IMG/VR virus record: IMGVR_UViG_3300009034_002625 | Coordinates: 1 to 64,000 of that record | Source of the DNA: a virus | DNA length: 64,000 nt | Strand: one strand, 5' to 3' | Shown here: positions 18,220 through 59,021 of the stretch, in pieces | How positions within the stretch are numbered: the stretch's first letter is position 1 | How the letters are laid out: each line of letters starts with the position of its first letter | Notes under the pieces: generated by a model | The model's input: the letters and a program-made list of their open reading frames with translations, nothing else | Told to the model about the DNA's origin: nothing | Database searches by the model: none | Translations under genes and position numbers: made by a program

Positions 18220-19293
18220 TTACTCCGCAAAACTTTCATCTACGGTTATTTCGTAACCATATGGTGAATTGGGTAAAAGTTTATCATAAAGATCTCTAAC
18301 AAAACTCAAGAATAAACCACCATCATCTGAATCAGTTGTAAGGTAAAAAGCATCATCAAGAACAAACAAAGGAACTAAAACATAACGAGTCGCAGCAATA
18401 GCATAAGCAGTAGTTCCATCAATTACTACAGATCCTGAAATTCCAGATGCATTTTCTTGGGTAATTGTGCAAGTTACGGGAGCTCCATCATAATAAGCAG
18501 TTCCGCTTGCAACAAGTTCGTCTCCATCCGAATCTGAATAAAGTTTAATAGTCAAAACATGAGTATAGCCAACTCCATTGGCAACAACTGTTAAAGTATA
18601 ATAAAGTTTTCCTTCATCTGAATTATCATTATCATAACCAGTCAAAGACCAAGATGAAAGTTGATTATTGGTATCACCATATTCAAGAATTGTAGTTCCT
18701 TCTATTATCTTAAAAGAAATTCCACCTTCTTCCCATTCGTAATCTTCATCCGTTACAGGCTGAACAGAAGGTGAAGCAATCGCAGAACACCTTACTTCCC
18801 AAAGTTCAGATCCTTGGGTTCCTACATCTGAACAGATAACTTCAATATAATTATCTTCTCTAGCCATTTGAGTAGTAAGATAATTTATTAGACTTCCCGC
18901 ATTGGAATTAGTCAAACTGCTTGTTGGGCCGCTAGAAGAAATCGTATTAGCTTTAACCTTATCGCTTGCGGAATTCATCTCTCTTATCAAATCATCTATT
19001 ACCTGAACTACAGTCTCATCAAGTCCTGAATTTAGTTGTGTTTTTACAAAATTGCTGAAAAATGAATCACAATCGGTCTTGATCAAAGTATCTTTCCAGG
19101 TAAGATAGGTACTTTGCTTTGCATCAAAATCATCCAGTGCTGTCTCAAGAGATTCCATATCTGATTTATTCGTATTGAATAAATTAACAAATGCTTTCCT
19201 TATTGATTCATAATAGTCATCATATTCAACCATTGTATTTCTAAACATTACATATTTCCCCATGCGACGATAAATTAAATCACGATCGTACAT
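18220..19293 (-). CDS. structural protein of unknown role
   Basis: A 357-residue protein not recognised by family. The N-terminal ~130 residues are helical, the middle ~170 are beta-rich and Asp/Thr/Ser-rich like an Ig-type or decoration domain, and the last ~45 are helical. It lies between capsid and connector genes, so a capsid decoration, neck or head-closure role is likely. Its ribosome site AAGGAGGA lies in the last codons of the HNH gene, which suggests that gene was inserted just upstream. Confidence 0.5.
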   Translation of the reverse strand: MYDRDLIYRRMGKYVMFRNTMVEYDDYYESIRKAFVNLFNTNKSDMESLETALDDFDAKQSTYLTWKDTLIKTDCDSFFSNFVKTQLNSGLDETVVQVIDDLIREMNSASDKVKANTISSSGPTSSLTNSNAGSLINYLTTQMAREDNYIEVICSDVGTQGSELWEVRCSAIASPSVQPVTDEDYEWEEGGISFKIIEGTTILEYGDTNNQLSSWSLTGYDNDNSDEGKLYYTLTVVANGVGYTHVLTIKLYSDSDGDELVASGTAYYDGAPVTCTITQENASGISGSVVIDGTTAYAIAATRYVLVPLFVLDDAFYLTTDSDDGGLFLSFVRDLYDKLLPNSPYGYEITVDESFAE

Positions 19294-20099
19294 TTCTTCC
19301 TCCTTCTTATTTTTCCAGCATAATTATCAGTTTTTTTATGACACACTTGGCAAAGAGTTTGCCCATTTGAAATTTCAAATCTTAAAGCAGGATATTTTGC
19401 AAAAGATAAAACATGATGAGCATTTAAATAATTTCCTCTTTTCCTACATTTTTGACAAATATAATTATCTCTTTCAAAAACTGCTTTTCTCCAATCTTTA
19501 TATTCTTTTGAATAATATCCTGTTTTATAACCTTTGCTTTTTCCACCTTTCCAATTATAATGTTTCGGCCCTTTTATAGATTGACCAATTTTATCTCTGG
19601 TCTTTTGAGAACGAGGAGGTCTTCCAAGTGAACCACAAGATTGAGAACAATATTTTCGGGAAACAGAAGGTATAACTTCAAAAGCTTTTCCGCAATATAA
19701 ACAAACTAATACCTTTCTTTTATAAGGAGCATGTCTTTTGCGTTTCATTCCTTTTCGAGTCAGTAATCCTTTTTCTATGGATTCTTTAGATAGTTTTCGA
19801 CCTTTGAGTTTTATGCTAATTTTCAATTTGGATTCCAAAGTATGATGTCTTCCCGAAAAAGTTGGAGGGGGAGTTTGTTTCAGCCGAATAATTCTTAATT
19901 TATTTTTAGTTTCTTCAGAAACTTTTTTTCCCATTAAAGCTTTAGATATTTTCTTTTTGTGATCCAAGGAAAATATTCTTCCCTTACCACTCAAGCTCAT
20001 TTTTTTCTTAGTTTCTTCCGAATGAAATTTTCCCATGTGTGATTTTCTCATTTTCTCTATAGATTCTTCTGAATGTTTAAAACCTAACCTATTAGGCAT
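19275..20099 (-). CDS. free-standing HNH homing-type endonuclease with NUMOD3 repeats
   Basis: A 274-residue protein. Residues ~5-110 contain several NUMOD3-like DNA-binding repeats (FKHSEESIEKMRKSHMG, FHSEETKKKMS, SEETKNKLR). A CxYCGKxF..C..SC zinc-binding patch follows at ~130-155, and an HNH domain at ~205-262 has ERDNYICQKC, LNAHHVL and the final CQVCH. It is probably a mobile homing endonuclease. It sits between capsid and connector genes and overlaps the next start by 19 bases. Confidence 0.9.
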   Translation of the reverse strand: MPNRLGFKHSEESIEKMRKSHMGKFHSEETKKKMSLSGKGRIFSLDHKKKISKALMGKKVSEETKNKLRIIRLKQTPPPTFSGRHHTLESKLKISIKLKGRKLSKESIEKGLLTRKGMKRKRHAPYKRKVLVCLYCGKAFEVIPSVSRKYCSQSCGSLGRPPRSQKTRDKIGQSIKGPKHYNWKGGKSKGYKTGYYSKEYKDWRKAVFERDNYICQKCRKRGNYLNAHHVLSFAKYPALRFEISNGQTLCQVCHKKTDNYAGKIRRRKKCTIVI

Positions 20100-20108: not shown

Positions 20109-21560
20109 TTAACTTGCTATGTGAATATTATAACCAGAAAATTTTTCCTTAATTGTCTGAGTCATATATAAAAAGGATAATTTATCCTTTAAACTTTTAC
20201 CCTCAAAAGTTAAATTGACTTTAGAAGATTTTGACATCTCATTAAATATTTTGTGTCTAGTTGGTTTAGGAAGAAACTTTTTAATCTTTTCGGCAAGAAC
20301 ATCCAAGCTGAATTTTTCTAATTTAAAATTGCGAATTTTCTTTTTTCCCGATACAGCAATCTGGATAGATTCCTGTATCTCTTTTAAGTTTTTTTGATTT
20401 TTCACATATATCAAATCATCTCCATATTCCCGTTTTAGTTGTTTCAATTCTAAAGCTACAAATGGCTTATTGAATGCTAAAAACTCTGCGGGAACCATAC
20501 CAAAGCCCTCATGCCTAGAAAGAACAATCCCAGCTTTTGATCTTTGAATTATTTGAAATTTTGTTTTATCGTCTACCCGTTCATAATAATTGAATTTGTG
20601 AAGATTATTTCCATTTCCAAAAACCTCTCTGACTTTCGAAGTTCCAGTTCCAATATAATTAAGATCCAATGGATCTTTCATTTCAATAATTGCTTTTCCA
20701 ATTTCTTTCCATCCTTTAAAATCTGCAATTCTTCCTATATAAGTAATTTCATTTTCTATTTTCTGCTTTAGAACACTTTTCATAACTTCTAAATTTAATG
20801 GCGGTTCACAAATGTGAATAGGAATTCTATTAAATCTCTTATCCCATTCATAAAATTTTTCTTTAGTCATTTTTGAGCTACAAAGTATTGCATCTGCTTG
20901 GAGATATTCTTCTCGATGATCTACAATTTTATCTTTCCATTCAGGAACTTCTTCTGTCAACCATTTGTCTGTTTCATAACAAAATAGCCAAATCGGAATC
21001 TGAAAAAACTCACCATATTCAATAGCTCTTTTTAAGCATTGCGGAGGAGTCCCGATTACCAAATCAAAACCTGCATACTTAATAGCATAACGGTTATTAA
21101 ATTCAAATGAAATGCCTATTTCTCTTTTCCAATCATTCATAAAAGGAGATTCTTTCGGAGTACAAACATGAATATGCGCTCCAGTTTTAGCTAAAGCTTG
21201 GACTAAAGCATAATCAGAATATCTTGCTCCAGAATATCCAGGATCATCAGCAGTCATGAATAAAATTTTAAATTTACGTTCAGGATGAAAAGCTCTCCGG
21301 ATATCCTTTCTGGAACTAAACGCTCTAGACTCTCCAACTTCAGGTGCTTTCTCAAACCACTTTTCAAAAACATCTGCCCCCACTGAAACTTTTTGAAAAG
21401 GTGATCCCGAGGAAAGAAACCAATTTTTCATCAAACTGGAAATAGGAAAAGGTTCTCCCTTGAGAACAGTAATTTCTCGACCCCAGCGAGAATTTAAAGT
21501 ATTTTCAATTCTTTTCGCTTTTTTGGGTCCGGTATAAACTAACCAAATAACATCTTCCAT
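20109..21560 (-). CDS. glycosyltransferase, GT4-like
   Basis: A 483-residue protein with a two-domain GT-B layout. The donor-side half has NEITYIGRIADFKGWKEI and SRHEGFGMVPAEFLAFNKPFV, the typical GT4 EGFG motif with its following Glu. The N-terminal ~90 residues are an extra domain of unknown role, then DDPGYSGARYSDYALVQAL, a typical N-terminal Gly-rich loop. It would transfer a sugar from an activated donor. Placement right after the capsid gene suggests modification of virion protein, or of host or phage DNA; the substrate is not shown by the sequence. Confidence 0.85.
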   Translation of the reverse strand: MEDVIWLVYTGPKKAKRIENTLNSRWGREITVLKGEPFPISSLMKNWFLSSGSPFQKVSVGADVFEKWFEKAPEVGESRAFSSRKDIRRAFHPERKFKILFMTADDPGYSGARYSDYALVQALAKTGAHIHVCTPKESPFMNDWKREIGISFEFNNRYAIKYAGFDLVIGTPPQCLKRAIEYGEFFQIPIWLFCYETDKWLTEEVPEWKDKIVDHREEYLQADAILCSSKMTKEKFYEWDKRFNRIPIHICEPPLNLEVMKSVLKQKIENEITYIGRIADFKGWKEIGKAIIEMKDPLDLNYIGTGTSKVREVFGNGNNLHKFNYYERVDDKTKFQIIQRSKAGIVLSRHEGFGMVPAEFLAFNKPFVALELKQLKREYGDDLIYVKNQKNLKEIQESIQIAVSGKKKIRNFKLEKFSLDVLAEKIKKFLPKPTRHKIFNEMSKSSKVNLTFEGKSLKDKLSFLYMTQTIKEKFSGYNIHIAS

Positions 21561-21615: not shown

Positions 21616-22623
21616 CTAGCTAAGATCTGTCGCTGCTGTATAAAGAGCATAGAGTCTATCTGTGTTGAGAACCTTGACTTGATCATACCAACGAAGGGCA
21701 ACACCGAAGTATCTTCCATAATCATCTTTTTCTTCAGCCCAAATGAACTGAATAGCATTTTCATGGAAGAAACCAATTGCTCTTCCAAGAGCTCTTGGAC
21801 CCATCATGAAACCCTTATAAATCGTGGTAGAATATCCATTGGCAGCTGATACGATCAACGGAGACCTATAAATAAGGCATCCATCCCAATAAGCATCAAA
21901 GCCTCTAAACGCAGGACCTATGGCATTTTGCTCAGACATGGTTGAACCAGCCTGCGCGGCAGCCGTCTTATAGTCAGTGTGAGTTACCAGATCATAAATC
22001 TGGTAAGGATGTAAGAAGCAAACATAATATCCATCGGCTTTCGCTCTTGGATTTGTGGGATCTCCTACATCGAATTTAGGAACTTTCGCTCCCTCCATCT
22101 TGTATTTCAACTTGGAAATGGTTCCAGGGGTTATTTTATCAGTAGCATCAATATCTCCAGATCCCGTAGCATCTCCGCCCCACAAAATATTTGCGGCAAG
22201 ACATCCCGACACCAATGCCGTAAAGGCATCCGTTTCCTTTTTCTCCGCAGCTTCTTCGCCTAGAGTATAAACAGCCTCTTTTCTCAGTTCTATCAAGGTT
22301 TTAGCTCTTGCGCTAGCTGTGAATGCAACTGCTCCACCTTTCTCTGTAGGCTCGTAACTAACCAAGTCAAATTGCATCTTCTTCTCATTGCCTTTTAGAG
22401 AAGTAGTTTCAGTCAAATCCCAACTGATGTTAAGCTTTTGTCTCTTTGGAATGTTAAGCTTATCACCTTCTTTTTCAATGAGCTCTCTCTTGATAACCTC
22501 AAATTTGGCCATAAATCTCTTAGCCCAGTTGACATCCTCAACCTGCTTGGTCCAAATTTCTGGCAGGGTATTATCTATCGTGGTTGAAGATGTTACATTA
22601 GTATAACTTGGATTATCAGCCAT
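21616..22623 (-). CDS. major capsid protein, N4-gp56-like
   Basis: A 335-residue protein directly after the scaffold region. It resembles N4-gp56-family major capsid proteins, with an opening TLPEIWTKQVEDVNWAKRF and LIEKEGDKLNIPKRQK; the late segment FFHENAIQFIWAEEKDDYGRYFGVAL fits the HK97-fold peripheral region. These proteins form the icosahedral shell. A good AGGAGGATTTGAAC site precedes the ATG. Name given from pattern memory and position, no search was run. Confidence 0.8.
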   Translation of the reverse strand: MADNPSYTNVTSSTTIDNTLPEIWTKQVEDVNWAKRFMAKFEVIKRELIEKEGDKLNIPKRQKLNISWDLTETTSLKGNEKKMQFDLVSYEPTEKGGAVAFTASARAKTLIELRKEAVYTLGEEAAEKKETDAFTALVSGCLAANILWGGDATGSGDIDATDKITPGTISKLKYKMEGAKVPKFDVGDPTNPRAKADGYYVCFLHPYQIYDLVTHTDYKTAAAQAGSTMSEQNAIGPAFRGFDAYWDGCLIYRSPLIVSAANGYSTTIYKGFMMGPRALGRAIGFFHENAIQFIWAEEKDDYGRYFGVALRWYDQVKVLNTDRLYALYTAATDLS

Positions 22624-22680: not shown

Positions 22681-23211
22681 TTATTTTTTTGTCTCGTCAA
22701 GATAATAATCGGTTCCAACCAATTTGATCTTTTCTGCATTCATCAGCTCGGTCATTTTTCCCGGAGGCATTTTGGCTATATCATCTGCGGTTAATTTTTT
22801 GCCTGTCGGAGTTTCTTTCTTGGTAGCTTGCTTTCCATCTCCTGTCAAAATCGAGGGCATTTCTTCAAAAACGGAAAGAAGTTCCAATGTTTCCTTGCTA
22901 AAATCAGCTTCAAGATCAGTTCTGTCTCCTTCAAATTTCTCGACCATTGACAAAACTTTGGCTTTCTGAGCTGGAGGAAGTTTACCTGAACCAACCAAAC
23001 TTTCCACTTTCTCGTTGATCATCTTGGTAGACTGGGCTTTTCGAATTTTTTCCAGAGTCTCTATCTTTTTAACCCCAGTCTTAACAGCCTCTTCGAGCTT
23101 AACCAAAGACTCATGAGTTTGTTTTCCAAGAGCTATTTCTCTCTTCTTGAGCTCAGCCTCTTTCTTTTCAAGAGCTTTGGCCTTTTCAACTAGTTCTTTA
23201 ACTTCTTCCAT
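22681..23211 (-). CDS. nested scaffold protein from internal in-frame start
   Basis: The ATG at 23211 is in frame with the protease gene and is preceded, 8 bases away, by TAAGGAGG, a full match to the anti-Shine-Dalgarno. It would yield 176 residues: a long coiled coil (VEKAKALEKKEAELKKRE), then helical segments and a C-terminal helix, as in scaffolds. Lambda C/Nu3 and Mu I/Z use the same overlapping layout. No protein evidence is available here. Confidence 0.65.
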   Translation of the reverse strand: MEEVKELVEKAKALEKKEAELKKREIALGKQTHESLVKLEEAVKTGVKKIETLEKIRKAQSTKMINEKVESLVGSGKLPPAQKAKVLSMVEKFEGDRTDLEADFSKETLELLSVFEEMPSILTGDGKQATKKETPTGKKLTADDIAKMPPGKMTELMNAEKIKLVGTDYYLDETKK

Positions 23212-24027
23212 CGTATCTTCCTCCTTAAGATATTCGAAATTCACAAGTTTTTTTACACCTACAGAATCTGCTTCAAGTTGCTGAAATCCTTCTAACTTTG
23301 TGATTTGTGGATCAAGCGTTAAAGCGACATGATCGATAATCTCACCCTCATCTTCTCCAGATTCAGAATTTTTAAAGTGAGGATCAATGCTTATACTTGT
23401 GTCCTTAATCGATTTATTGCTGACCAACTCTTCAATTTGATCAGTAGTAAAACCAATTAAGCCCCACAAAGAATTATTGTCCCGAATCTCAAGATCTTCA
23501 ACCCAACCAGTATTCAAGCGTGGATCTTTCGAATGACGGAGAGGAACTGGAACCTTTTTGAGCTCTTTTTTAAAAGCATCAATCCATTTCTGCAATCTTT
23601 CAACAGTCACTTCCAATTTCTTTTCCGTACCCGGAATAATCCAAGATCCTACCCGAATCAACTCTTTCCAGAATTTCTTACCTTCTTTATTCTCAAAATT
23701 CAAATCCTCAATGTTTGAGCTAAGAAGAAGGCTTTCTTCCGCGGTTGGTTCGAATTCCTCAAGAAACTTCGAATAAGCAGCGCCAGCAGTCTTAATAATG
23801 TAGCCCTTGATTCTTCCAAGTAGCAATTTTAGGTTCTTGGGGGCTTTCTCAATTTCCTTATCAATGAACTGAATTACGGCCTTAAACTTTCCACCATAAG
23901 GTGCCTTTGCCATTTTATCTTTATCCTTTTCTGGATATTCATCTTTATCCTTTTTATAAGGCTCATAATCCTTTTTCTTCTTATCTTTCAAATCTTTATC
24001 CCAATTTCCATAAAAATCGTCACTCAT
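22681..24027 (-). CDS. head maturation protease fused to scaffold (Mu gpI-like)
   Basis: About 448 residues. The start at 24027 overlaps the previous TGA as ATGA and follows a GGAGG site. Residues ~1-45 are extremely charged. The ~115-250 region resembles Mu gpI-type proteases: VPVPLRHSKDP, then GLIGFTTDQIEELV, KDTSISIDPHF and HVALTLDPQI. The last ~175 residues form a coiled-coil scaffold-like domain that can also be made alone from an internal start at 23211. Protease and scaffold would drive procapsid assembly and then be removed. Confidence 0.65.
   Translation of the reverse strand: MSDDFYGNWDKDLKDKKKKDYEPYKKDKDEYPEKDKDKMAKAPYGGKFKAVIQFIDKEIEKAPKNLKLLLGRIKGYIIKTAGAAYSKFLEEFEPTAEESLLLSSNIEDLNFENKEGKKFWKELIRVGSWIIPGTEKKLEVTVERLQKWIDAFKKELKKVPVPLRHSKDPRLNTGWVEDLEIRDNNSLWGLIGFTTDQIEELVSNKSIKDTSISIDPHFKNSESGEDEGEIIDHVALTLDPQITKLEGFQQLEADSVGVKKLVNFEYLKEEDTMEEVKELVEKAKALEKKEAELKKREIALGKQTHESLVKLEEAVKTGVKKIETLEKIRKAQSTKMINEKVESLVGSGKLPPAQKAKVLSMVEKFEGDRTDLEADFSKETLELLSVFEEMPSILTGDGKQATKKETPTGKKLTADDIAKMPPGKMTELMNAEKIKLVGTDYYLDETKK
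23220..23227 (-). promoter_or_regulatory. internal ribosome binding site TAAGGAGG
   Basis: A full anti-Shine-Dalgarno match inside the protease reading frame, 8 bases upstream of an in-frame ATG. Such a perfect site by chance inside coding sequence is unlikely, which supports separate translation of the scaffold domain. Confidence 0.7.
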
Positions 24028-24524
24028 GATATAACCTCCCATATTTCAATTCTCTGCTCTTCCAGCATCACTTCCTGGCCTTGAGCAGGATTGATAACAA
24101 CAGAGATATTCCTAAACTCGATGTCTTTGGCACTCCTTTTCTTACCTTTTGTATTGACTTCTGTCAAACGCATGGCTGGAGAAACACCAAAAGACATAAA
24201 ACCCATCAGCCTTTTCTGATCCTCTAATTTCTTGATAAGAACGGAATCAACAAAACACAATTCTGCTCTTATTCCTTTTACACCCTGATCCCAAAAAGGC
24301 TGTCTATAAAAACCTACCCAGGTTTCTATTCCTTCTTTGTGATCAGTAAAAATGGAAAACTTTCCTCCCTCAGCAGGTTTGCCCTCATCCTTCTTCAAAT
24401 CGGCGAGGGCTTTTTTAATTTCCTCTGCGGGATAGAAAAGATCATTCCATGTTCCTTCTTTTAAGATAATTCTATTCTTAAAAATAAGAATATTATCTTT
24501 TTTTTCAAAACAATACAAATCCAT
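24024..24524 (-). CDS. prohead protease-like protein
   Basis: A 166-residue protein upstream of the protease-scaffold gene. FYPAEEIKKALADL, then IFTDHKEGIETWVGFY, GIRAELCFVD, GFMSFGVSPAMRL and NISVVINPAQGQEV fit the pattern of phage prohead protease folds, with His in TDH and Ser in SFGVS as the likely catalytic pair. Because a Mu-I-like domain follows in the next gene, this phage may encode two related proteases, or one of them may have lost activity. It is coupled by an ATGA overlap. Confidence 0.6.
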   Translation of the reverse strand: MDLYCFEKKDNILIFKNRIILKEGTWNDLFYPAEEIKKALADLKKDEGKPAEGGKFSIFTDHKEGIETWVGFYRQPFWDQGVKGIRAELCFVDSVLIKKLEDQKRLMGFMSFGVSPAMRLTEVNTKGKKRSAKDIEFRNISVVINPAQGQEVMLEEQRIEIWEVIS

Positions 24525-27500
24525 TTAGTCCCTTTCTCCTCCAGGGCCAGCCAATCTTTGAAAAACCCAAATGTCGGCTTTGGGGGTTTCTCTTTTGAAA
24601 GTATATAGTCCCTTTAAATGCTTTCCCTTGAATTCCGCCGACATGAAATTTGGATTGTCCTCCAAAATATTCAGCGAACCAGAATCTTCAATATCTACAT
24701 TCGCCTCTATTTTCTTGTTAGGATTTTCCCCATGCGCCGGTGGAAGCTTGCCTTTAAAAGTCATCCAAGCTTTCACTGGAGCATTGGGAGGACCAATTGT
24801 CGTCTTAACTTTTTTTGCAGCAACCGCTTCTTCAAAAAGAGGTGATTCTTTCAACTTGAAAGTATCAAGCCATTCTTTGCCCCTATCTATTCTAGTAGAA
24901 TATTGTTCAACCGGCATTGCTCTCACAACTTTTGCACCAAGCCACCATATTTTCTGAAGAATGAATTTTGCTTTAGCTAATTCCAATTCTTTTACTTCAA
25001 TCTTTCTATGTTTCAAATAACCTTCATCGATAAGCCAATTAAAAGCTAAATCCATTTTTTTCAAAGCCTCATTTTTGGATACAGCTTTAGTCCACCATTT
25101 TATTTCATCTGGAATGATAGCTTCAAATTCAGGAGATAATCCCGATGTTCCCCGAGGTGGAACATAGTCTCTTTTCTTCCTTCCTTCTGGAGACATCAGA
25201 TAGGGAATTTCATTTTTAGTCTTAGAGAAAAACCAAAAAAGTTCCTTCTTCCCAACTCTTTCCCATTCTTTTCTCCTACCTATTAAACGTGTAATAAATC
25301 TTCCTTTATATTTACTACCTCTCAAAAAATACTCTCTAAAATATGCCTTTCTGGTTCCGGGCCAAGAAAGACCCCAGTCTTCTCCCCAGAATACTCCCTT
25401 TTTAGTAGCAGTTGCACCTACTTGACCAGGTTCAACAATATTTTTAATTTCCTTAATCCATACCAAGGGTTGAGTTCCTTTTTCTGTAGCATAGAGTCTG
25501 GTTCCAACCGGCATATCTGGTCTCATTTTTTTAATTTTGGGATCATTCGCATATTTTTCAGCTTTTTCAAAAGTATCAACATCTTCTTTTATTGCCCCCT
25601 TAATCTGATTAGCAATAGTCCAGCCTTCAAGATGATCATTTATTTTAATCCTAAGATCGCTGTGCAAACTCCGTCCCCTGAAATGATCAGATAGTTGGAA
25701 GAATCCTTTTGGCAATGTTTTCGGATCCATCTTTAAAATTTGTTCTCTAGTTTTACCAGTCCATTTTTTAAACTTGCTTTCCACTTCTGGAACTTTTGGA
25801 GGTTCTTTCTCAAGATTGATTTCTTCTTTAAAAGAAAGTTCATAAAAAGAAGAATGATAAGATAATCTTCCGCTTATCGCTTCTTCCCCAGCTAGCTCAG
25901 CTTCTTCTTCAAAAAAAAGTTTTTTCTTTTCAAAAACTTCTTTGTATCGTTTTGGGAAAGGCTTCTCGGCTATTTCTCCACCAGTTTCTTTAACAAGTTT
26001 CAAAGCAAACTCCAAACTATCAGGTTTAGTTTTATCTTCACGTTTCTCAATTGGTCGAGCAGCCCACATATTCAACCAAATCTCATTGGTTTTGGGATCC
26101 GTATATTTATTTATATTTGAGAAGGCCACTCTTAATATATCTCCTACCTTACATTTGATTCTAGTGTTATAAGTCCTTCCTGAAGGAATTAACTTATCTC
26201 CCTTTCTCACAACCGTGAGATAATTCCATGCTGCTAACTTTCCAGCTTTAGGACCTGCAACCTGATGGATATCAATAACTTCTACATCTAAGTCAGCTTC
26301 TTTTTTGCCTTTAACCCATTTAGTTGACATTCCACCTAAAGGATAAGTTCCTTCTGACTGCTTAACCATCATTCCTTCTGAATTCTTGATCCCCCCAAAA
26401 TGTTCCCAAGCCTTTTCTACTTGTCCTTCATTTTTGCAAAGCCTCCATTCCATAACTTGGAGTTTACTTAAATTTAAAGGCTTGATTGCTTTATCTAAAA
26501 CATGTTTTCTTTCCATTTCAGTTTCTTTATGCAAATCTCTATCATCGATCATTAGAATGGTAAAGATATTAGCAAAGAAAGGCTTGTCATCTACAGCTCC
26601 TTTAGAATGAGCATATCCTGCAACATCGCTTCTACCCATATGTTTGCCTTTCAAGAATCCCTCAGACCATCCTTCTATTTCACTATCAACGATAAAATCT
26701 TGTTTAACCTTTTTGGCTTGAGCAACGATAGTTGGAAGTCTATGAGTCCAATCTCCACCATCTTCAGATTGGATTTTTACTCTATCACCCTTTTTACTGA
26801 TAATAGCACGTGCACCGTCCGCTTTCTTATCAATGATAAACTCATAATCTTCAGGCTTGAATTTGCCTTTCAAAAAATTCAAGATATTCTTAATCGAATA
26901 AACTTCTTGTTTTCTATATCCTGCAATTCCTTTAAGTGGAAGAAAATATCTAAAATATTCTATCTTATCTTCTCGTTTTGACTTTTCAGCTTGACTGCTA
27001 ACTTCTTCTGATTTAATTCTCTGGAAATTCCAACCATCTTTAGATAGACCTACCAGTTTATCTTCGCATCTTTCAAATTTAATATTATAGAGAGGAATAT
27101 AACTAGTAAATAATCTGGAATCAGAAACAAGATGGATGTCTTCCATCAAATCTGTAGGTAATTGGGACATAAGTCTAAATTCTTCTTCCGGCAGTAAGTC
27201 TCTCCTGCAAATCAAATCAACATCATTCCCGTGTCCTGAAACTGCCATTGAACCAGCAAGACAAACAAGTTCTTTTCCTATATAGAAATCTTTAAATAAA
27301 TCCAAAACTCCCTGAAGTTTATATTTTCGCTTCTGGCCATAAAGCTCATATTTCATAGAAATCTTATCAAGCAGGTCTATGATTCTGTGTTCCATATTCC
27401 TTCTATCTCTCATTTCATCAACAACAAAAGCATGAGCATGAATCAAGGGTTCTGAAATTTTTGGGTAATTTTCCCAGAAGATATCATGGAGTTCTGAATG

Positions 27501-28082
27501 AAGAATAACTAATTCTTTATTCGAAAGACTGTCCAGATATTCAGGCGTAACCTCTTTAATATCAAACTTTCTCTCAAAATTCAAATAATGAATATCGTCA
27601 ACAAAAGCCTGAACTTCCTTTTTTTGCTTGATATCTTTTGGCCTATCAAAAGGAATAACTTCCCTAACTTTCCACAAATAAAACTCTTTAACATTTGGCC
27701 AAAAAGCTATTCTTTCATCATCTGTAATTTTATGAACATCTCTTAGTTCATCGAATTCTTTTCGAGAGATCTTTTCATAATCCTGAAAACGAGCTAGGCC
27801 ATAGTCTTTCTTGCCACTCACAATATGATAAAAGCCGCGTAGGTCAAATTTCTTTGATTTAACCACGGCCGCTTTATTGCCCGATATGAGCATCTGAGCA
27901 TGCGGAGAGACTAAAGTTAGGCCCTTCGTAGATTCCTTCGCCAGGACTTCTCGAAAGACCTCTCGAGAAATTCTCTTCATTTTGTTAGGATGGAAAACAG
28001 TTGATTCTCGATCAATTAACTCCCTAACAATTTTTCCCAAAAAAGTCATAATTTGTTCTTTTGTAAAATCTTTTATTTCCAT
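24525..28082 (-). CDS. nucleotidyltransferase / ATP-dependent DNA ligase / LigD phosphoesterase-like fusion
   Basis: About 1185 residues from the ATG at 28082. The N-terminal ~250 residues include a region (KKFDLRGFYHIVSGKKDYG) and a helical H-x-x-LH plus H-x6-EM pattern. A polymerase-beta-type nucleotidyltransferase follows (GSMAVSGHGNDVDL, ~277-290). The ligase core spans ~390-600 with motif I KADGAR, a DSEIEGW motif III, EGMMVKQSEG motif IV and KWVKGK motif V, followed by an OB-like region. At ~800-830, H-x6-HSDLR resembles the LigD 3'-phosphoesterase. The closing strand LYTFKRETPKADIWVFQR also fits that domain, so ~300 residues may be inserted in it. It would seal and trim DNA ends; its place among head genes is unusual. 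Confidence 0.8.
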   Translation of the reverse strand: MEIKDFTKEQIMTFLGKIVRELIDRESTVFHPNKMKRISREVFREVLAKESTKGLTLVSPHAQMLISGNKAAVVKSKKFDLRGFYHIVSGKKDYGLARFQDYEKISRKEFDELRDVHKITDDERIAFWPNVKEFYLWKVREVIPFDRPKDIKQKKEVQAFVDDIHYLNFERKFDIKEVTPEYLDSLSNKELVILHSELHDIFWENYPKISEPLIHAHAFVVDEMRDRRNMEHRIIDLLDKISMKYELYGQKRKYKLQGVLDLFKDFYIGKELVCLAGSMAVSGHGNDVDLICRRDLLPEEEFRLMSQLPTDLMEDIHLVSDSRLFTSYIPLYNIKFERCEDKLVGLSKDGWNFQRIKSEEVSSQAEKSKREDKIEYFRYFLPLKGIAGYRKQEVYSIKNILNFLKGKFKPEDYEFIIDKKADGARAIISKKGDRVKIQSEDGGDWTHRLPTIVAQAKKVKQDFIVDSEIEGWSEGFLKGKHMGRSDVAGYAHSKGAVDDKPFFANIFTILMIDDRDLHKETEMERKHVLDKAIKPLNLSKLQVMEWRLCKNEGQVEKAWEHFGGIKNSEGMMVKQSEGTYPLGGMSTKWVKGKKEADLDVEVIDIHQVAGPKAGKLAAWNYLTVVRKGDKLIPSGRTYNTRIKCKVGDILRVAFSNINKYTDPKTNEIWLNMWAARPIEKREDKTKPDSLEFALKLVKETGGEIAEKPFPKRYKEVFEKKKLFFEEEAELAGEEAISGRLSYHSSFYELSFKEEINLEKEPPKVPEVESKFKKWTGKTREQILKMDPKTLPKGFFQLSDHFRGRSLHSDLRIKINDHLEGWTIANQIKGAIKEDVDTFEKAEKYANDPKIKKMRPDMPVGTRLYATEKGTQPLVWIKEIKNIVEPGQVGATATKKGVFWGEDWGLSWPGTRKAYFREYFLRGSKYKGRFITRLIGRRKEWERVGKKELFWFFSKTKNEIPYLMSPEGRKKRDYVPPRGTSGLSPEFEAIIPDEIKWWTKAVSKNEALKKMDLAFNWLIDEGYLKHRKIEVKELELAKAKFILQKIWWLGAKVVRAMPVEQYSTRIDRGKEWLDTFKLKESPLFEEAVAAKKVKTTIGPPNAPVKAWMTFKGKLPPAHGENPNKKIEANVDIEDSGSLNILEDNPNFMSAEFKGKHLKGLYTFKRETPKADIWVFQRLAGPGGERD

Positions 28083-29047
28083 GTTCCTTGTTTCCTTTTG
28101 GCCGAAGCACAAGCAAGTAGAAATCGCATATCATCCCTTAATTGTATCTCAGTTCTACTATCGGCTTCATATTTTTCAGTATCAAGTTCTTTGTTATTTT
28201 CAATGGGCTCATTTATACAAACCCATAGTTGGTTGTCAATATCTTTCCCGCCTAAAATATTTCTGCTGGTCTGCAATTGAACTCGTTCGACAGATTTAAA
28301 AACTATCTCAAGATTTTTTCTGATATTTCCTTCGCAATGCATAAGAAAGATTTTGCAGTTCTTGCTTAGTTTATTAACTATCTGAGGAATATCATTTAAA
28401 TTGAAAGGCATACTAGCTATCTCTTTTTGTTCCAAAATGCAATCCAAAAATTTTTGAGGTTCATATTTAGATGAATCGTATGGCGGGTCAAAATAAACTA
28501 CATCTACCTTTGGAAAATTCATTCTTTGAATATCTTCCCTTAAAACCTTAGCCTCTTTTGAAAAATTTATTCTTCGATAGAAAGATTGTTTAATTTTCTC
28601 TTCTAAAAATTCCTCAAATCGCTTAGAAAAGTTATTTTCTCTAATTGGCATATAGGTAAAATAATGAGTAAAGGTATCCGCCAACACTCCCAAGCCAATA
28701 TGTTTTTTCTTCATTTGTTGTGCATGAACTGCCAATCCATCAATTCGTTTTCTTAATTCTTCGGGTTCTTTTCTCATCTTTGCTTTAGTAAACCATCCTT
28801 CAACTGGCTTAGCTTTTAAGAAAGCATCAGTTTCTTCCTTTGTTAGTTTGTCTTTTGAAAGCAAATAACGAGAAAACCAATAAGGAACTCCATTAACATC
28901 GTTAGCTAAAACTTCCATTCCTCGTCTTAAGCAAGATAAAAGAACCGTGCTTCTACCACAACAAGGATCAAAGATGGACTTCGCCCCAACTGGAATTCTC
29001 TCCAGAATATCGTCTCGAACTAAATGTCTACTTTGCCACCAAATCAC
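28073..29047 (-). CDS. DNA (adenine-type) methyltransferase-like protein
   Basis: A 324-residue protein with an S-adenosylmethionine-binding motif FDPCCGRSTVLLSCLRRG near residue 25 and a catalytic DPPYDSSKY near 150. The order, SAM motif first, fits alpha- or gamma-like N6 methyltransferases. The mid-region between them is long and basic and may hold target recognition. It is joined by overlaps to portal and ligase-fusion genes. It may modify phage DNA before or during packaging, but the base and site are unknown. Confidence 0.8.
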   Translation of the reverse strand: MIWWQSRHLVRDDILERIPVGAKSIFDPCCGRSTVLLSCLRRGMEVLANDVNGVPYWFSRYLLSKDKLTKEETDAFLKAKPVEGWFTKAKMRKEPEELRKRIDGLAVHAQQMKKKHIGLGVLADTFTHYFTYMPIRENNFSKRFEEFLEEKIKQSFYRRINFSKEAKVLREDIQRMNFPKVDVVYFDPPYDSSKYEPQKFLDCILEQKEIASMPFNLNDIPQIVNKLSKNCKIFLMHCEGNIRKNLEIVFKSVERVQLQTSRNILGGKDIDNQLWVCINEPIENNKELDTEKYEADSRTEIQLRDDMRFLLACASAKRKQGTWK

Positions 29048-30554
29048 CAGCTTTCTCCTTACTTCTTTTTATTCCTAAATCATAGATTAAATTCAATAAA
29101 TCAAAATGTCCCAGTTTAATTTCCTTCTCTTTCGAGAATTGTTTTAATTGAATAAATTCTTTTGCTTTTCCTTTCAAGAAATCATGATCCTCATCTGGCA
29201 TTTCAACGTATCCCTCAAAGCTATATTCTTCTTTTCCTTTCTCAACGCCTTGATTGTAAACTTTTCTCAAAGCAATAAATGCGGATCTTTCAGGATTCTT
29301 TTCCTCTTTATAATCAAATGAAATCTTCCCGCCCTCTGAAGTAAGGGGAACTCTAAATCTTTTGGCTAATTCAATAACATCAGGTTTAATATCTTGAGGC
29401 TCATTATCAAAAGTTTTCAAGAAAACATCTTTATTAATATTTCTTACATAGGGATCAAGGGGTTCAAACTCAAAATCGATTTTGGGAAGACTTCCTGAAA
29501 AATTTGCTCGGATCAAAGGATCCACCAGATAAGGAAGAATATAGCCTTTAGCCATATCATTTGCCAAACTTTCAACTGCTCGAGAAAGCCATTCACTATG
29601 AATATTAGCTTTTGCATAAGATCCTCCACCACCAAAAGCTACTTCTTCAAAAACAAAGATCGCTCTCGCTTTTAGCTGATCCATCTTGTCATGATCTGCA
29701 TTAAAATCATAGACCTTACCTGCTTTTTCTTCAAGCAGTTCTATGTTCCAACCTGCTTCTGAAGGCATAGAAACCCCACCCGAAGAACGAACTGATTCTA
29801 CTATTTCCTGAATTAGATCTAAATTATCTACCATGATAGGAGAATTCTCAGAATCAAGACCAATCTGAGATTCACCTATCGGAGCTTTTCCCAGAACTGT
29901 AGCTATAGCCAGCTTCTCGGTATAAAGCCCATGATTCTCAAAAATATATTTGTCCAAAAACCAATAACGATAAGCAGATCTAATCCTGGATCTTCCGTAA
30001 AGATTCCCAAATCTTTTATCATGAGTATAAACAAAACATTTTTCTTTGGGAATAGTAACCTCTTCAGTATTGCCCCAGGGCAATTGCTGAATCAATCCAT
30101 CAAAGGAACCATCTTCGGTAACTTTGATGGTTAGATATTGGGGATCCATATCCAAGGGAATCTTCAACCACCATTGACCATCCCTTGCTTCAAATCTTTT
30201 TTCGTTACCTGAATAGCCAAATTCAAGAGCTGTTGATAAATTTCTCATCAAATGTTTCCAGATTCTTTCTAAATTCTCTGTGGCGAATTTTTTAATTTCT
30301 TGAGATTTACAAACTAATTGCCATCTCATATTCTGGATAGGTATTTTAAAAATAAGCAAAGGAAATAAGATTCCCCCATCATCCAACATTTCCTTGTATG
30401 TTGAAATTTGAATAGTATCGGGATTATAAGTTTCACCCTCTTTGATAAAAGAAAATTGATGACGACCGAGTTGTGCCGAGGTTAGAAGTTTATATAAAGA
30501 TTTTTTCTTATTTTTTTTATACTTCGTAACTTTAAATTTTGCAGTTTTAGCCAT
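29028..30554 (-). CDS. portal protein, DUF935/Mu gp29-like
   Basis: A 508-residue protein directly after the large terminase. IQISTYKEMLDDGGILFPLLIFKIPIQ, FGNLYGRSRIRSAYRYWFLDKY and FEEVAFGGGGSYAKANIHSEWL fit DUF935-type portals. Portals form the 12-fold DNA gate and dock the terminase. The start overlaps the terminase stop by 8 bases, and the end overlaps the methyltransferase by 20. Confidence 0.85.
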   Translation of the reverse strand: MAKTAKFKVTKYKKNKKKSLYKLLTSAQLGRHQFSFIKEGETYNPDTIQISTYKEMLDDGGILFPLLIFKIPIQNMRWQLVCKSQEIKKFATENLERIWKHLMRNLSTALEFGYSGNEKRFEARDGQWWLKIPLDMDPQYLTIKVTEDGSFDGLIQQLPWGNTEEVTIPKEKCFVYTHDKRFGNLYGRSRIRSAYRYWFLDKYIFENHGLYTEKLAIATVLGKAPIGESQIGLDSENSPIMVDNLDLIQEIVESVRSSGGVSMPSEAGWNIELLEEKAGKVYDFNADHDKMDQLKARAIFVFEEVAFGGGGSYAKANIHSEWLSRAVESLANDMAKGYILPYLVDPLIRANFSGSLPKIDFEFEPLDPYVRNINKDVFLKTFDNEPQDIKPDVIELAKRFRVPLTSEGGKISFDYKEEKNPERSAFIALRKVYNQGVEKGKEEYSFEGYVEMPDEDHDFLKGKAKEFIQLKQFSKEKEIKLGHFDLLNLIYDLGIKRSKEKAGDLVAK

Positions 30555-32091
30555 GCTTTATTTTCCCAAATTTTAAATTTGTTTCAATTCTAGGCCTAAA
30601 GAAAGAAGCTCTTGATAAATGCTTTTTCTTTTTTTCTTTCATTTTTCTCGCTTGCTGACTTAATATTTGTCCTCCCGATCTATATCGAAATCCTTTCGTT
30701 CCAGTTTTCGCGGCTTCTCTTGCAAAGAAACATGCCATTACAAGATCGTCTTCTTTCATATTAGGCCAGTTCTTAAGCTGTTTTATCCATTCACACCAAA
30801 TACATTTGCAGACCACAGAATGCTTTCTCCCCATAAAAATTTTCCATTTACCTTGCTCGAAATCCAAAGCCATTCCATCAATGCCTGCCAAAGATCTTTT
30901 CTGCAATTGCGTAAAGTATGCTTTTAAAGGAAGATGAGTATCCTTTGCTTCAGGTAAAGTTTTTATCCATTCCAGAAAGGATTTTTGATAAGCATTAGTT
31001 TCCACCATTATTTTTTTTGCCCAATGGATTTTTTGAAGTTGGACTACCCGTCTTGCTGTAGCAATAGAACCAAGTCTCTTTTTGCCCATTTCAACAGGAT
31101 AAAGATTTCCCTCGGGATCTCTTGCAAGGATAAAAAATGCAGAGAAAGAAGCATCGGAACGTTTTCCTATCGCAAGATCAACTCCCATAAATCTTGGCCA
31201 GTCGGAAGAAATATCAGAAGGCGATCTGGTATCAAAAACACAACTATCAACATCCTTTTCTTGGAAAGTGTGATCTTCATCGGAGACTGGTTTCAATTCA
31301 TAATTTCTTTCCCAATCTGACTTCTTCATTGATTTTCTTTTATTCTGCAATTTTGGCGCATTCCATTTATTTGGCCAGATAGGTTTAAAATCTACAATGG
31401 GTCGGATAAGCTTCTCATACTCAGGATCATTTCTTAATTCACTGGTTAAATCATCTTCATGCCAAGTAGTAGCAATATAAATTAATTTACCTCCATCTGC
31501 TAGCAAAGGAATCCAAGTTGAATAAAAAGCCCGCTTAATTGTTTCTCTCATCTTGGGAAATTGAATTGCATTCCTGAAATCTACAGGATCATCAAAAATA
31601 AGGAGGTCTGCTTGACCTCCCGTAGATGAACTGAGAATCGACCAGGCTTCAACACTTGAATCGGAGCTAACACCTGGTCTGTCAACTGTAAATTTATGTT
31701 TCGTCCAATCAAGTTCGCCGGGCATAAGATCGGGAAAAACTTCATGAAGATCGATAGAGTTTTCAATATAATATTTAATAAATCTAATTTTTGCTTTTGC
31801 CATTTCGTCAGTATTCGAAACGACTTTAATTCTCATGCGGGTATCTTTTCCAAGAGAATGAATTGCATAAGATTTGACAATAGTAGTTTTCCCATGCTTT
31901 CTAGGAATAAGAAGAAGGCCTTTTTCTTTAATTGAATCAAAAAAATCGATAATTTCATTATGAATTTCATCCAAGACTAAAGGATTTCCAGTTTTATCAT
32001 CCTTGATAACTAACTCGGTAAAATCCTTTGCATTAGTTTGAGCTCTTTCGTATTTTTCTAGTTCTTTAATTTCTTCTTCAACTGTTAGCAT
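30547..32091 (-). CDS. terminase large subunit
   Basis: About 514 residues from the ATG at 32091, which has an AGGAGAAG site; an upstream in-frame ATG lies in the small-subunit gene. The ATPase half has Walker A (PRKHGKTTIV, ~63-72), Walker B (DLLIFDDPVD, ~162-171) and a coupling ATTWHEDD. The nuclease half has a GVDLAIGKRSD Asp at ~305, VETN Glu at ~364 and DDLVMA near ~449. It packages DNA into the prohead and cuts the concatemer. The packaging type cannot be read from this alone. Confidence 0.95.
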   Translation of the reverse strand: MLTVEEEIKELEKYERAQTNAKDFTELVIKDDKTGNPLVLDEIHNEIIDFFDSIKEKGLLLIPRKHGKTTIVKSYAIHSLGKDTRMRIKVVSNTDEMAKAKIRFIKYYIENSIDLHEVFPDLMPGELDWTKHKFTVDRPGVSSDSSVEAWSILSSSTGGQADLLIFDDPVDFRNAIQFPKMRETIKRAFYSTWIPLLADGGKLIYIATTWHEDDLTSELRNDPEYEKLIRPIVDFKPIWPNKWNAPKLQNKRKSMKKSDWERNYELKPVSDEDHTFQEKDVDSCVFDTRSPSDISSDWPRFMGVDLAIGKRSDASFSAFFILARDPEGNLYPVEMGKKRLGSIATARRVVQLQKIHWAKKIMVETNAYQKSFLEWIKTLPEAKDTHLPLKAYFTQLQKRSLAGIDGMALDFEQGKWKIFMGRKHSVVCKCIWCEWIKQLKNWPNMKEDDLVMACFFAREAAKTGTKGFRYRSGGQILSQQARKMKEKKKKHLSRASFFRPRIETNLKFGKIKHG

Positions 32092-32500
32092 CCTGCTTCT
32101 CCTTCTGTTCTCGTAGCTTCCCCAACCTATCAAGCCTAGAAGATCTCGGGCTATCTCCAGAGCCACCATTTTCACTAGAAATTCTAGCAAGAACTTCCAG
32201 CTTGAATTTTTGCAAATCAATCAAACTTGTTATATTACTTGCCGTAAGCTTCTCTTGTTTCTTAACCCTATCAATAAGTTCATTACAGCTTTTCAAAATT
32301 AATTTTTTTTCGATATCGGGGATTATTTCAGTTGGCCCAAAAGAATCAACAAATTGCTTTGCTTTAATTTTCTTTTTAACTCTGTAAATTTGTTGATCAC
32401 CCAATCCTAATTCGAGTGCAATTCTCTGCCAAGAATAGCCTAGGCCCCGCATTTCGTTAGCAAGAGAAACATTTTGGTTAAATTGTTTTACTGTGTTCAT
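32078..32500 (-). CDS. terminase small subunit
   Basis: A 140-residue protein with an N-terminal helix-turn-helix (LGYSWQRIALELGLGDQQIYRVKKKI) and a central helical oligomerisation segment, then a charged tail with SPRSSRLDRLG. It overlaps the large subunit by 14 bases. Small terminase subunits recognise the packaging site and load the large subunit. Confidence 0.75.
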   Translation of the reverse strand: MNTVKQFNQNVSLANEMRGLGYSWQRIALELGLGDQQIYRVKKKIKAKQFVDSFGPTEIIPDIEKKLILKSCNELIDRVKKQEKLTASNITSLIDLQKFKLEVLARISSENGGSGDSPRSSRLDRLGKLREQKEKQDANS

Positions 32501-46255: not shown

Positions 46256-46573
46256 GTGGAAGATGATTTAGGGTTTGTTTCAGTTAGATTAACAGTAGAT
46301 GGCATAAAACATGAAATAATAAGAGCATTGACGCTTTATGAGAAAAATCTCCAAAAAGATATCGAGGGTGCGGTAAAAAAAGCTATTGATAATTTTGATT
46401 TTGAAAAGGAGTTGGCTTGTCAAGTGGATATTGCAATCAAAGAAGCAATTGCAAGAGCAGTCCAAAATGCTTTGATATGGGGAGATGGATATAAGAAAAT
46501 AGAAAAGATAGTCAGAGAAGCAATAGACAAAAAGGCAAAATTTACAGATGGAAAGGAAGGTAAGGTTAATTAA
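46256..46573 (+). CDS. hypothetical protein with GTG start
   Basis: A 105-residue helical protein that starts at GTG after AAAGGAG. It contains repeats of charged helices (DIEGAVKKAIDNFDFEKE, IAIKEAIARAVQNAL). Not recognised. It ends one base before the helicase ATG. Confidence 0.5.
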   Translation: MEDDLGFVSVRLTVDGIKHEIIRALTLYEKNLQKDIEGAVKKAIDNFDFEKELACQVDIAIKEAIARAVQNALIWGDGYKKIEKIVREAIDKKAKFTDGKEGKVN

Positions 46574-47940
46574 TGGCTTTATTCAAACATCAAGTAGAAA
46601 TGATTGAGTTCGCTTTAAAACGAGATAGGTCTGGAAATTTTGGAGAGACTGGCGTTGGGAAGAGCCTTGCAACATTAGAAGTAATTAAGGAAAGAATGAA
46701 AAGAGGCGAGGTTGAGACCGTTCTGGTCATATGTCCATTGACTTTGATTTGGAACTGGCAAGAAGAAATTGAGAAATGGACAGACCTGACCTCAGTAGCA
46801 TTGAAAGGAAATCTTACGAAAAGACTAGACAATCTTAAGAAAAATGCGGATATATATCTGATAAATTATGAGGGAGTTCCCCTGATCAAATCAGCGTTGG
46901 AAGAAAAGAATTTTGATATGATTATCTTAGACGAGGCCCATAAGATCAAAAGCCGATTTGCAAGTCGAAGTCTGGCTATTTTTAGCGTGGCTGAAATGAC
47001 TCCCTATCGTATGATTTTGACAGCAACTCCAATCCTGAATATGCCTACGGATATCTACTCCGAATTCTTCTTTTTGGACCCCAAAATTCTGGGTGAGAAT
47101 TATTACGAATTCAGGGACCATTATATGAAGAATTTGAAAGAGACAAGGAAGGTTCCTCTTAATAAATGGATTGTTAGAAAAGGCAAACTCAAAGATCTTT
47201 CTGATAAGATTTTCAAGCATGCTATCAGATTCAGAAAAGCAGACTGTTTAGATCTCCCGGATCGGGTTTTTGTAGAAAGAAAGGTCGGGCTTTCCAGAGA
47301 CCAGGAGACCGCTTACATAGATTTAGCAAAGCGATTTAAGACCGAATTGGATGGCGAGATGATTACTATAGCGGGTATTTTTGCTAAATTCTTGAGACTC
47401 AATCAAGTCTGTTCTGGCTATTTGCCCGCAAAAACAGGCATTAAGCACTTTTCCAAGAATTCTAAGTTAGAACTACTAAAGGAAGTGTTAGAAGAGATAG
47501 GCGAACCCCAGACGATAGTGTGGGCATACTTCCACGAAGATATCGAGAGAATTGTAAAAGAGATTAAGAGAGCCGATTCTATCTATGGAAAGACTCCTGT
47601 AGCACAGAGACAAGAAGTAGTAAAGAGATTTCAAGAAGGTAAGATTCAATATCTTGTAGCCCATCCTGGATGTGCTGGTCAGGGATTGAATTTGACTAAT
47701 GCTCCCTATAGTATCTATTATAGTAGAAGTTTCTCCTTAATGGAAAGACTCCAGAGTTTGGGAAGGAATTATAGGATAGGCTCTGAGGTTCATTCTAAGA
47801 TTACGATTTTTGACCTTGTTTCAAAGCTTAATGCTAATGTGGTTTCGATTGATGAATATATCTTAAATTCCTTAAAAATGAAAAAGAAGATTGCGGATGT
47901 GGTTAACCGAGATTCGGCATTTAAGTTATTTGATTTTTAG
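46573..47940 (+). CDS. SNF2-family ATP-dependent helicase
   Basis: A 455-residue superfamily 2 protein. Motif I GETGVGKS is at ~24-31, DEAH (motif II) at ~120-123, TATP (motif III) at ~150-153 and a motif VI-like QSLGRNYRIGS near ~396. The short linker between halves and the late LNLTNAP block fit SNF2-type phage enzymes. It may remodel DNA-protein complexes or aid replication fork restart. Confidence 0.85.
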   Translation: MALFKHQVEMIEFALKRDRSGNFGETGVGKSLATLEVIKERMKRGEVETVLVICPLTLIWNWQEEIEKWTDLTSVALKGNLTKRLDNLKKNADIYLINYEGVPLIKSALEEKNFDMIILDEAHKIKSRFASRSLAIFSVAEMTPYRMILTATPILNMPTDIYSEFFFLDPKILGENYYEFRDHYMKNLKETRKVPLNKWIVRKGKLKDLSDKIFKHAIRFRKADCLDLPDRVFVERKVGLSRDQETAYIDLAKRFKTELDGEMITIAGIFAKFLRLNQVCSGYLPAKTGIKHFSKNSKLELLKEVLEEIGEPQTIVWAYFHEDIERIVKEIKRADSIYGKTPVAQRQEVVKRFQEGKIQYLVAHPGCAGQGLNLTNAPYSIYYSRSFSLMERLQSLGRNYRIGSEVHSKITIFDLVSKLNANVVSIDEYILNSLKMKKKIADVVNRDSAFKLFDF

Positions 47941-49402: not shown

Positions 49403-49680
49403 CCGTAAAGATATGCTTAGCAATAGGATTTTTTGCATCTGTTTTTGTATTATTACTCTGTCTTTGTAGAAGAAGGATAATTTTTGGAATTGGAATGGGC
49501 TCTGGTCTTTCTTCTCTTGATATTATAAGTGATTCGCGATGGATAGTTTATTATTGGTCAGAAAAAAGTGGAGGGCGCTGTTCAGTTCCACTTTCAAAAA
49601 ATACAGCAGAGGGTTTATTTAAAAAATTTAATGAAGCAGAATATTTATTATATGTTGTAAAAAGAAAGGAGCCAAAATGA
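49384..49680 (+). CDS. membrane protein with soluble tail
   Basis: A 98-residue protein with one membrane segment (ICLAIGFFASVFVLLLCLC) followed by an alpha/beta tail. It overlaps the nuclease gene by four bases. Function unknown. Confidence 0.45.
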   Translation: MATTELAVKICLAIGFFASVFVLLLCLCRRRIIFGIGMGSGLSSLDIISDSRWIVYYWSEKSGGRCSVPLSKNTAEGLFKKFNEAEYLLYVVKRKEPK

Positions 49681-58289: not shown

Positions 58290-59021
58290 ATGGAAGAATA
58301 TCTAAACAAAATTCATTGTGCGGATTGTTTGGAATTTATAAAAGAGATGCCTGATAATTCAGTTGATTTAGTGTTGACTGATCCGCCTTATTTGGTAAGT
58401 CAAAATAGAGTTTTTACAAGAAAAAATGTTAAGCAAGTATCATTGGTTTTTGAATGGGATGATAGATTTAAAGACGAAAAAGAATATTTGAAAGAAATGT
58501 TTACAGTAATTAAAGAGTGTTCTCGGCTACTAAAATCTACTGGCAGTATTTATGTATTTATTGCTGATAGATACAATTCCTTTATCCGAAAATTTATGAT
58601 AGATTGTGGATTGCATTATAAAAATACTTTAGTCTGGTATAAAACAAATCCAGTTCCACATTTTATGAAGAATAATTTTTGTAATTCGTATGAATTTTGT
58701 TGTTTTGCTTGCAAAAATCCTAAAGAATTTATTTTTCATTTTGGTTGGCAAAAAAATATGCACAATGTAATTAGTTTGCCTATTTGCGGAGGACATGAAA
58801 GAACATCTCATCCAAGCCAAAAGCCTCTCAAATTGGTTAAAAATCTTATAGAAATATCAAGCGAGAAAGATGCAATAGTCCTTGATCCTTATTTAGGCTC
58901 TGGCACAACAGCAGTCGCTTGCAAAGAATTAAATAGAAATTATATCGGCATAGAAATCAATCCCGATTATTGTAAAATAGCAGAAAGAAGATTAAACAAT
59001 ACAGAAAAACCTTTATTTTAA
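58290..59021 (+). CDS. DNA methyltransferase, beta-type
   Basis: A 243-residue protein. The catalytic LVLTDPPYLVSQN comes first (near residue 30), then the SAM-binding VLDPYLGSGTTAVACKELN near 205. This order marks beta-class N6/N4 DNA methyltransferases. The site is not readable from sequence. It may protect phage DNA from host restriction. Confidence 0.9.
   Translation: MEEYLNKIHCADCLEFIKEMPDNSVDLVLTDPPYLVSQNRVFTRKNVKQVSLVFEWDDRFKDEKEYLKEMFTVIKECSRLLKSTGSIYVFIADRYNSFIRKFMIDCGLHYKNTLVWYKTNPVPHFMKNNFCNSYEFCCFACKNPKEFIFHFGWQKNMHNVISLPICGGHERTSHPSQKPLKLVKNLIEISSEKDAIVLDPYLGSGTTAVACKELNRNYIGIEINPDYCKIAERRLNNTEKPLF

Follow-up and report, generated by a model that had tools for sequence, protein, structure and literature searches.

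A head-module gene joining nucleotidyltransferase, ligase and phosphoesterase domains

The IMG/VR virus record IMGVR_UViG_3300009034_002625 comprises 73,022 bases, of which positions 1 to 64,000 were analysed here (the window). On the minus strand, a frame at 24525-28112 is open throughout and, from a likely ATG at 28082, encodes a protein of 1185 amino acids that lies among the head genes of a tailed virus. A preliminary description, made from the sequence letters, had placed three enzyme domains on this one chain of ~1185 residues, namely a Pol-beta-type nucleotidyltransferase, a DNA ligase and a LigD-like phosphoesterase (PE). Our analysis supports this assignment through fold and profile matches of the ligase and the PE and through a nucleotidyltransferase signature. 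The segments outside the PE region are as follows:

24525..28082, minus strand: whole protein, 1185 residues, comprising TTHA0113/ASCH-like domain, nucleotidyltransferase, ATP-dependent DNA ligase with OB domain, first PE (PE1), linker and second PE-like barrel (PE2); based on the open frame with ATG, domain hidden Markov models (HMMs) and an AlphaFold2 model
27591..27923, minus strand: TTHA0113-like (ASCH/PUA-like) domain, residues 54-164; family profile against PDB 2dp9/1wk2
27048..27317, minus strand: putative Pol-beta-type nucleotidyltransferase domain, residues 256-345; conserved signature and weak NTP_transf_2 matches
27213..27254, minus strand: motif GSMAVSGHGNDVDL, residues 277-290; direct reading of the sequence
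26292..26984, minus strand: ATP-dependent DNA ligase adenylation domain, residues 367-597; Pfam DNA_ligase_A_M, 2.6e-23
26814..26825, minus strand: ligase motif I KADG, residues 420-423; K420 in 76/77 and G423 in 77/77 alignment rows
25974..26291, minus strand: ligase OB-fold domain with REDK (motif VI-like, within RPIEKREDK), residues 598-703; structural alignment reaching residue 701

The ligase is the sole domain of the window protein matched by Pfam. In an AlphaFold2 model of the full chain (18-sequence alignment; mean predicted local distance difference test score (pLDDT) 74.8, mostly ~80-94 in the ligase region), residues 367-701 align by VIA-align to archaeal and human DNA ligases, with Z 25.7 to 2cfm, and the same region matches the LigD ligase 6nhz at Z 21.7. 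Thus, the ATP-ligase fold expected near residues 390-600 is present. A fold search with the whole chain returned ligases only and is uninformative on the other domains. Direct reading recovered motif I together with the previously noted motifs IV and V (EG at 569-570 and KGK at 591-593), as well as REDK at 681-684. Residues E468, E569, G570, K574 and K591 are each conserved in 76/76 rows, and in about a third of the family motif I reads KxNG.

The ASCH/PUA-like domain type could bind RNA. Together with the KxNG variant of motif I and the nucleotidyltransferase-ligase pairs known in phage RNA repair (PMC7824862), this would suit an enzyme of RNA repair or counter-defence, in which the nucleotidyltransferase, ligase and phosphoesterase mend cut tRNA as RlaP does with RNA ligases. 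However, structure and Pfam indicate DNA ligases, with RNA_ligase reaching only 1e-3 in a relative; the PE is of the LigD type, and the fusions found in relatives include DNA methyltransferases and DNA glycosylases. We consider a role in RNA repair quite improbable.

The predicted TTHA0113-like domain at the N-terminus is an extra module that the preliminary description overlooked. The N-terminal family profile matches TTHA0113 (2dp9/1wk2) at 5.4e-9 and covers most of that domain, which we take to belong among the ASCH/PUA folds; it is present in 33 loci of the family census described below. For the downstream nucleotidyltransferase, family conservation and weak profile matches support a Pol-beta-type identity: G277, D287 and D289, which form a G[GS] then D-x-D signature, are invariant (70/70, 70/70 and 71/71 rows), and 6 of 32 relatives show a weak NTP_transf_2 match (best 0.0034). 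This agrees with the earlier proposal that such a domain stands in place of the primase-type polymerase of LigD.

A contiguous phosphoesterase followed by a degenerate barrel

The C-terminal part of the protein resolves into four features:

25212..25709, minus strand: PE1, LigD-type 3'-phosphoesterase, residues 792-957; AlphaFold2 pLDDT 85.6, VIA-align Z 16.7 to 3p43
25650..25685, minus strand: PE1 metal-site block H800-x6-H807-S-D809-L-R811; residue census
24978..25211, minus strand: conserved linker (MID), residues 958-1035; own HMM, helices in the model
24555..24977, minus strand: PE2, second diverged PE-like barrel, residues 1036-1176; hhalign against PE1

Residues 780-1185 were modelled separately with AlphaFold2 from a 32-sequence alignment (pLDDT 85.6). 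PE1 superimposes on 3p43 with Z 16.7 and a root-mean-square deviation of 1.9 over 123/124 residues, the match spanning model residues 12-180 (~792-957). Six LigD-PE entries head the fold list (Z scores given: 16.7, 16.6, 14.3, 13.2 and 12.1), followed by an unrelated fold at Z 4.7, and Foldseek relates PE1 to LigD PEs with probability 1.00 (E 3e-7 to 7e-5). The only PDB profile matches of PE1 are 3p43 and 3p4h, and one relative scores above the Pfam LigD_N cut-off, at 3.6e-8. A single LigD sequence compared with PE1 by hhalign gave E 9e-4 with a probability of only 23%; given this low probability, the identity of PE1 was judged by fold comparison instead.

The preliminary description expected a PE match at ~800-1180 and took the PE to be split by ~300 residues, with a matching end strand at the C-terminus. 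Such a match was found, but the split was rejected: the stretch ~792-957 by itself spans a complete LigD PE without interruption, and the end strand forms part of the second barrel at 1036-1176 rather than of a divided PE. Cross-matches between PE1 and PE2 in iterated HMMs could reflect drift, and the pair was therefore re-tested with separate alignments, which gave an hhalign probability of 96% and E 4.8e-9. The PE2 positions equivalent to the metal ligands are I, Q and S in the window protein, and the H-x-D pattern is kept in 3 of 29 sequences. By these comparisons PE2 is a second, degenerate PE-like barrel lacking the metal ligands.

The H-x6-HSDLR block, in contrast, is intact in PE1 at residues 800-811. 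H800, H807, D809 and R811 (59/61, 71/71, 70/71 and 69/71 rows) correspond to the LigD metal ligands His42, His48, Asp50 and Arg52, whose roles are described in PMC8656161, and are 97-100% kept. As proposed earlier, the first two histidines lie one residue farther apart than in LigD (seven residues versus six), and this holds family-wide. The equivalents of LigD His84 and Tyr88 are Q871 and W875; across the family the first position is Q in 43, E in 18 and I in 8 of 75 sequences, His not being among the listed residues, and the second is W in 70 of 75. Both His84 and Tyr88 are required for activity of Pseudomonas aeruginosa LigD (PMC8656161), and since both are replaced here, PE1 may use other residues or have a changed activity; K868, W875 and E917 are conserved and may be among those it relies on.

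The loss of metal ligands in PE2 would fit a non-catalytic structural or scaffold protein descended from repair enzymes. However, K420, E468, E569, K574, K591, the Asp pair of the nucleotidyltransferase and the PE1 metal ligands are nearly invariant in 60-77 rows each, and we regard a purely structural role as extremely improbable. In the family alignments, the predicted catalytic positions hardly vary in any of the three enzymes.

Head-gene context, relatives and fusions

Pfam and phrog matches of the flanking genes place the fusion gene in the head module, between methyltransferase and prohead protease as described previously. In the order of transcription, the module comprises the terminase large subunit, portal, D12 adenine methyltransferase, fusion gene, two protease genes and major capsid protein:

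30547..32220, minus strand: terminase large subunit; phrog_38, 7.7e-70
29028..30554, minus strand: portal protein; Pfam Portal_Mu 1.3e-26, phrog_113 2.8e-35
28073..29047, minus strand: D12 N6-adenine DNA methyltransferase, upstream of the fusion gene with a 10-base overlap; Pfam MethyltransfD12, 3e-10
24024..24524, minus strand: S78-like prohead protease domain; weak Peptidase_S78 match (0.15), seeding an HMM that detects the proteases of relatives
22681..24042, minus strand: Mu-I-like head maturation protease/scaffold; phrog_976 2.7e-16, Mu-like_Pro 6.7e-5
21616..22623, minus strand: major capsid protein; Phage_capsid_3 4.9e-19, phrog_334 3.8e-21

Several further features of the window were recorded. 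By eye, 19275-20099 shows repeated short motifs and an HNH-like C-terminus and is a possible homing endonuclease beside the head genes, and glycosyltransferase-like open reading frames (ORFs) immediately follow the major capsid gene both in the window (20109-21560) and in the related locus L003 (17408-20278). The virus also encodes an SNF2-type helicase (46573-47940, 2.4e-33), a PD-(D/E)XK nuclease (49677-50489, 8.1e-18), a second DNA methylase (58290-59021, 5e-49) and two radical SAM proteins (60652-61368, 8.6e-9; 62919-63953, 5e-15).

As a query, the window protein alone recovered almost no relatives, and ANMV-1 alone none in viral contigs; an alignment led by a relative from locus L004 recovered 65 viral contigs. 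The resulting census of 79 loci, mostly from uncultured viruses, combines viral contigs, loci derived from metagenome-assembled genomes (MAGs), L003 and ANMV-1, and includes some near-duplicates. Hosts represented by the MAGs are, among others, a Methanosarcinales archaeon and the bacterium Ca. Hatepunaea. Nucleotidyltransferase, ligase and PE occur together in 66 of the 79 loci and share one ORF in 47, with the domain order of the window in 26 and the order nucleotidyltransferase-PE-ligase in 21. Among 50,697 deposited phages, ANMV-1 alone matched beyond one domain, among the matches listed.

Other observations concern the architecture of individual loci. Several other ORFs separate the nucleotidyltransferase-ligase part from the PE in L006 (647-6919) and L059 (6519-11911), through insertion, rearrangement or an assembly artefact. 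In L004 (10473-13380), a possible variable protein is followed by a reverse transcriptase, an arrangement that resembles, by eye, the diversity-generating retroelement described for ANMV-1. Of 72 segments within or beside family ORFs, 4 contain LAGLIDADG domains, and one intein splicing domain was found as well, which suggests that inteins may target family proteins. A large terminase-like ORF in L003 (5528-8356) seems, from its translation, to be broken by an intein-like insertion.

The genes adjoining family members encode portals, terminases, head proteases and major head proteins, and several of these functions are fused to family domains. The TTHA0113-like domain is joined to the portal C-terminus in seven loci, and ligase/PE proteins with a fused S78-like protease domain also occur in seven (E 1e-26 to 9e-38). 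Of 72 segments flanking or lying within family ORFs, 27 contain an XkdF-type protease (PF14550), which sits at the C-terminus in L067, L075 and L085, for instance. A D12 methyltransferase was found in 15 of 125 scanned segments, with fusions in L003, L067 and L075 among others. Single or few ORFs with family domains also carry a uracil-DNA glycosylase (UDG, 5.6e-22), a pyrimidine-dimer glycosylase (Pyr_excise, 5.5e-5), or metallo-beta-lactamase or NUDIX domains. The joining of these modules to portal or prohead protease in relatives makes it most likely that the protein enters the capsid or is positioned there. The fusions thereby lend indirect support to the preliminary proposal of a packaged or late-expressed end-repair enzyme.

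In T4, endonuclease VII associates with the portal. The family enzyme could act during packaging, sealing nicks or healing concatemer ends at the portal or procapsid while DNA is pumped, and not be carried onward into the next cell; the seven portal fusions of the TTHA0113-like domain and the adjoining portal and terminase genes agree with this. However, the fusions to protease, methyltransferase and glycosylases also fit a packaged protein, and the present evidence does not separate the two timings. We consider repair confined to packaging unlikely.

Relation to LigD and polyvalent proteins, and proposed function

LigD combines a ligase, a phosphoesterase and a primase for end repair. The window protein resembles bacterial LigD in carrying an ATP-dependent ligase, a 3'-PE and a nucleotide-adding domain on one chain, but it has a Pol-beta-type nucleotidyltransferase instead of the primase-type polymerase, Gln and Trp instead of the PE His and Tyr, an additional PE-like barrel and a head-gene context. 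No Pfam match to a primase-type (AEP) polymerase was found in the window protein up to E 10, and neither the window's record nor those of 21 relatives gave a Ku match, although these records may be incomplete and a host could supply Ku. Since the primase-type polymerase, Ku and the phosphate-site residues of the PE were all looked for and not found, the protein is not a LigD, though it probably works much like one. With the archaeal stand-alone LigD-type 3'-phosphoesterases (3p43, 3p4h and 5dmp), PE1 shares the fold (Z 13-17) and the metal-binding residues, whereas it is fused to a ligase and a nucleotidyltransferase, has the longer His spacing and lacks a His84 equivalent.

The closest deposited counterpart is ANMV-1 AJP62006 (KP703175; 866 amino acids), annotated just as 'ATP-dependent DNA ligase', a full-length relative from nucleotidyltransferase to PE2 with 31% identity in the first BLAST segment. 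Its gene lies directly downstream of the portal gene, similar to the head-linked location in the window, but it lacks the TTHA0113-like domain, no methyltransferase gene is annotated alongside, and the ligase is absent from the main text of the ANMV-1 paper. The neighbouring AJP62005 (L002, 1913-3193), deposited as a 'MutT-like phage hydrolase', matches Phage_portal_3 at 3.2e-22 and is probably a mis-annotated portal. In RHph_TM16 and Lactococcus 28201, an XkdF-type prohead protease is annotated together with a DNA methyltransferase, beside the portal in RHph_TM16; the match is to the protease part alone, with no nucleotidyltransferase, ligase or PE match.

Similar to the phage polyvalent proteins (Iyer et al, 2017; PMC5512222), exemplified by P1 DarB, the window protein is large, joins several disparate domains on one chain and is encoded among virion genes. 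Polyvalent proteins, some of them with a portal or MuF fusion, are presumed to be packaged and injected, and were reported as scarce in archaea; LigD, ASCH and XkdF go unmentioned in that survey, and ligase passages in it concern RNA ligases. DarB itself is a large protein whose gene neighbours those of portal and prohead protease, and it is packaged in the virion (PMC9024508), which sets a precedent for the family. The fusion protein is a variant of both LigD-like end repair and the polyvalent proteins, and literature searches of incomplete coverage found no paper describing a nucleotidyltransferase-ligase-PE head fusion.

On balance, we favour, with some reserve, a multidomain DNA end-healing and sealing enzyme of the head module that is probably packaged; its activity, substrate, packaging and timing are what we infer. 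What the analysis shows directly is which domains are present, judged from sequence and fold, how well their catalytic residues are conserved, where the gene lies and what the modules are fused to. The TTHA0113-like domain, and possibly PE2, would hold the protein on DNA or at the head. PE1 would clear blocked 3' ends via metal bound by H800, H807 and D809, with R811; the Pol-beta-type domain would add one or a few nucleotides; and the ligase would self-adenylate at K420 and then seal. Inside or at the capsid, the protein could mend nicks and gaps in the viral genome, its damaged bases or its ends, at about the time of packaging, ejection or early infection.

Four points weigh against this proposal. 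The nucleotidyltransferase fold is not confidently modelled (pLDDT ~60, PDB profile matches at E 0.09 or worse), PE1 chemistry may differ or be weak without His84 and Tyr88, and the window protein itself carries no fusion to portal or protease. Moreover, no DNA ligase other than the family enzyme turned up in the window's record or in those of 21 relatives (up to 121 kb): in the relatives' records, which are possibly partial, neither a second ATP-dependent ligase nor an NAD-type ligase was found, the NAD-type search covering the relatives only. As no second ligase was found, a dedicated role is not favoured by this search, and the protein might simply be the virus's general intracellular ligase or repair enzyme, its late-gene transcription being incidental. 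However, very divergent viruses share both the location and the direct joining to portal and prohead protease, and a general replication ligase would need neither, which makes a general ligase improbable.

A packaged end-repair enzyme may be part of a wider pattern, which we put forward tentatively and with more doubt than the function itself. A capsid-borne DNA repair kit could be carried by many of the uncultured tailed viruses that infect archaea and bacteria, combining a glycosylase or methyltransferase with enzymes that clean 3' ends, add nucleotides and ligate. It would be tethered to the portal or synthesised as a co-precursor with the prohead protease and cut loose by that protease in the capsid, so as to travel with the genome and repair it at ejection.

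LigD-like end repair is a cellular pathway, which some phages borrow through Ku. Viruses appear to have their own LigD-like version, which uses another polymerase-type domain and is linked to the apparatus for capsid filling and maturation. Public database entries for relatives that contain the ligase are open to re-annotation, and the modular fusions offer ready targets for enzyme assays and virion proteomics. If the protein is indeed packaged, viral genomes would be repaired by enzymes that arrive inside the particle.

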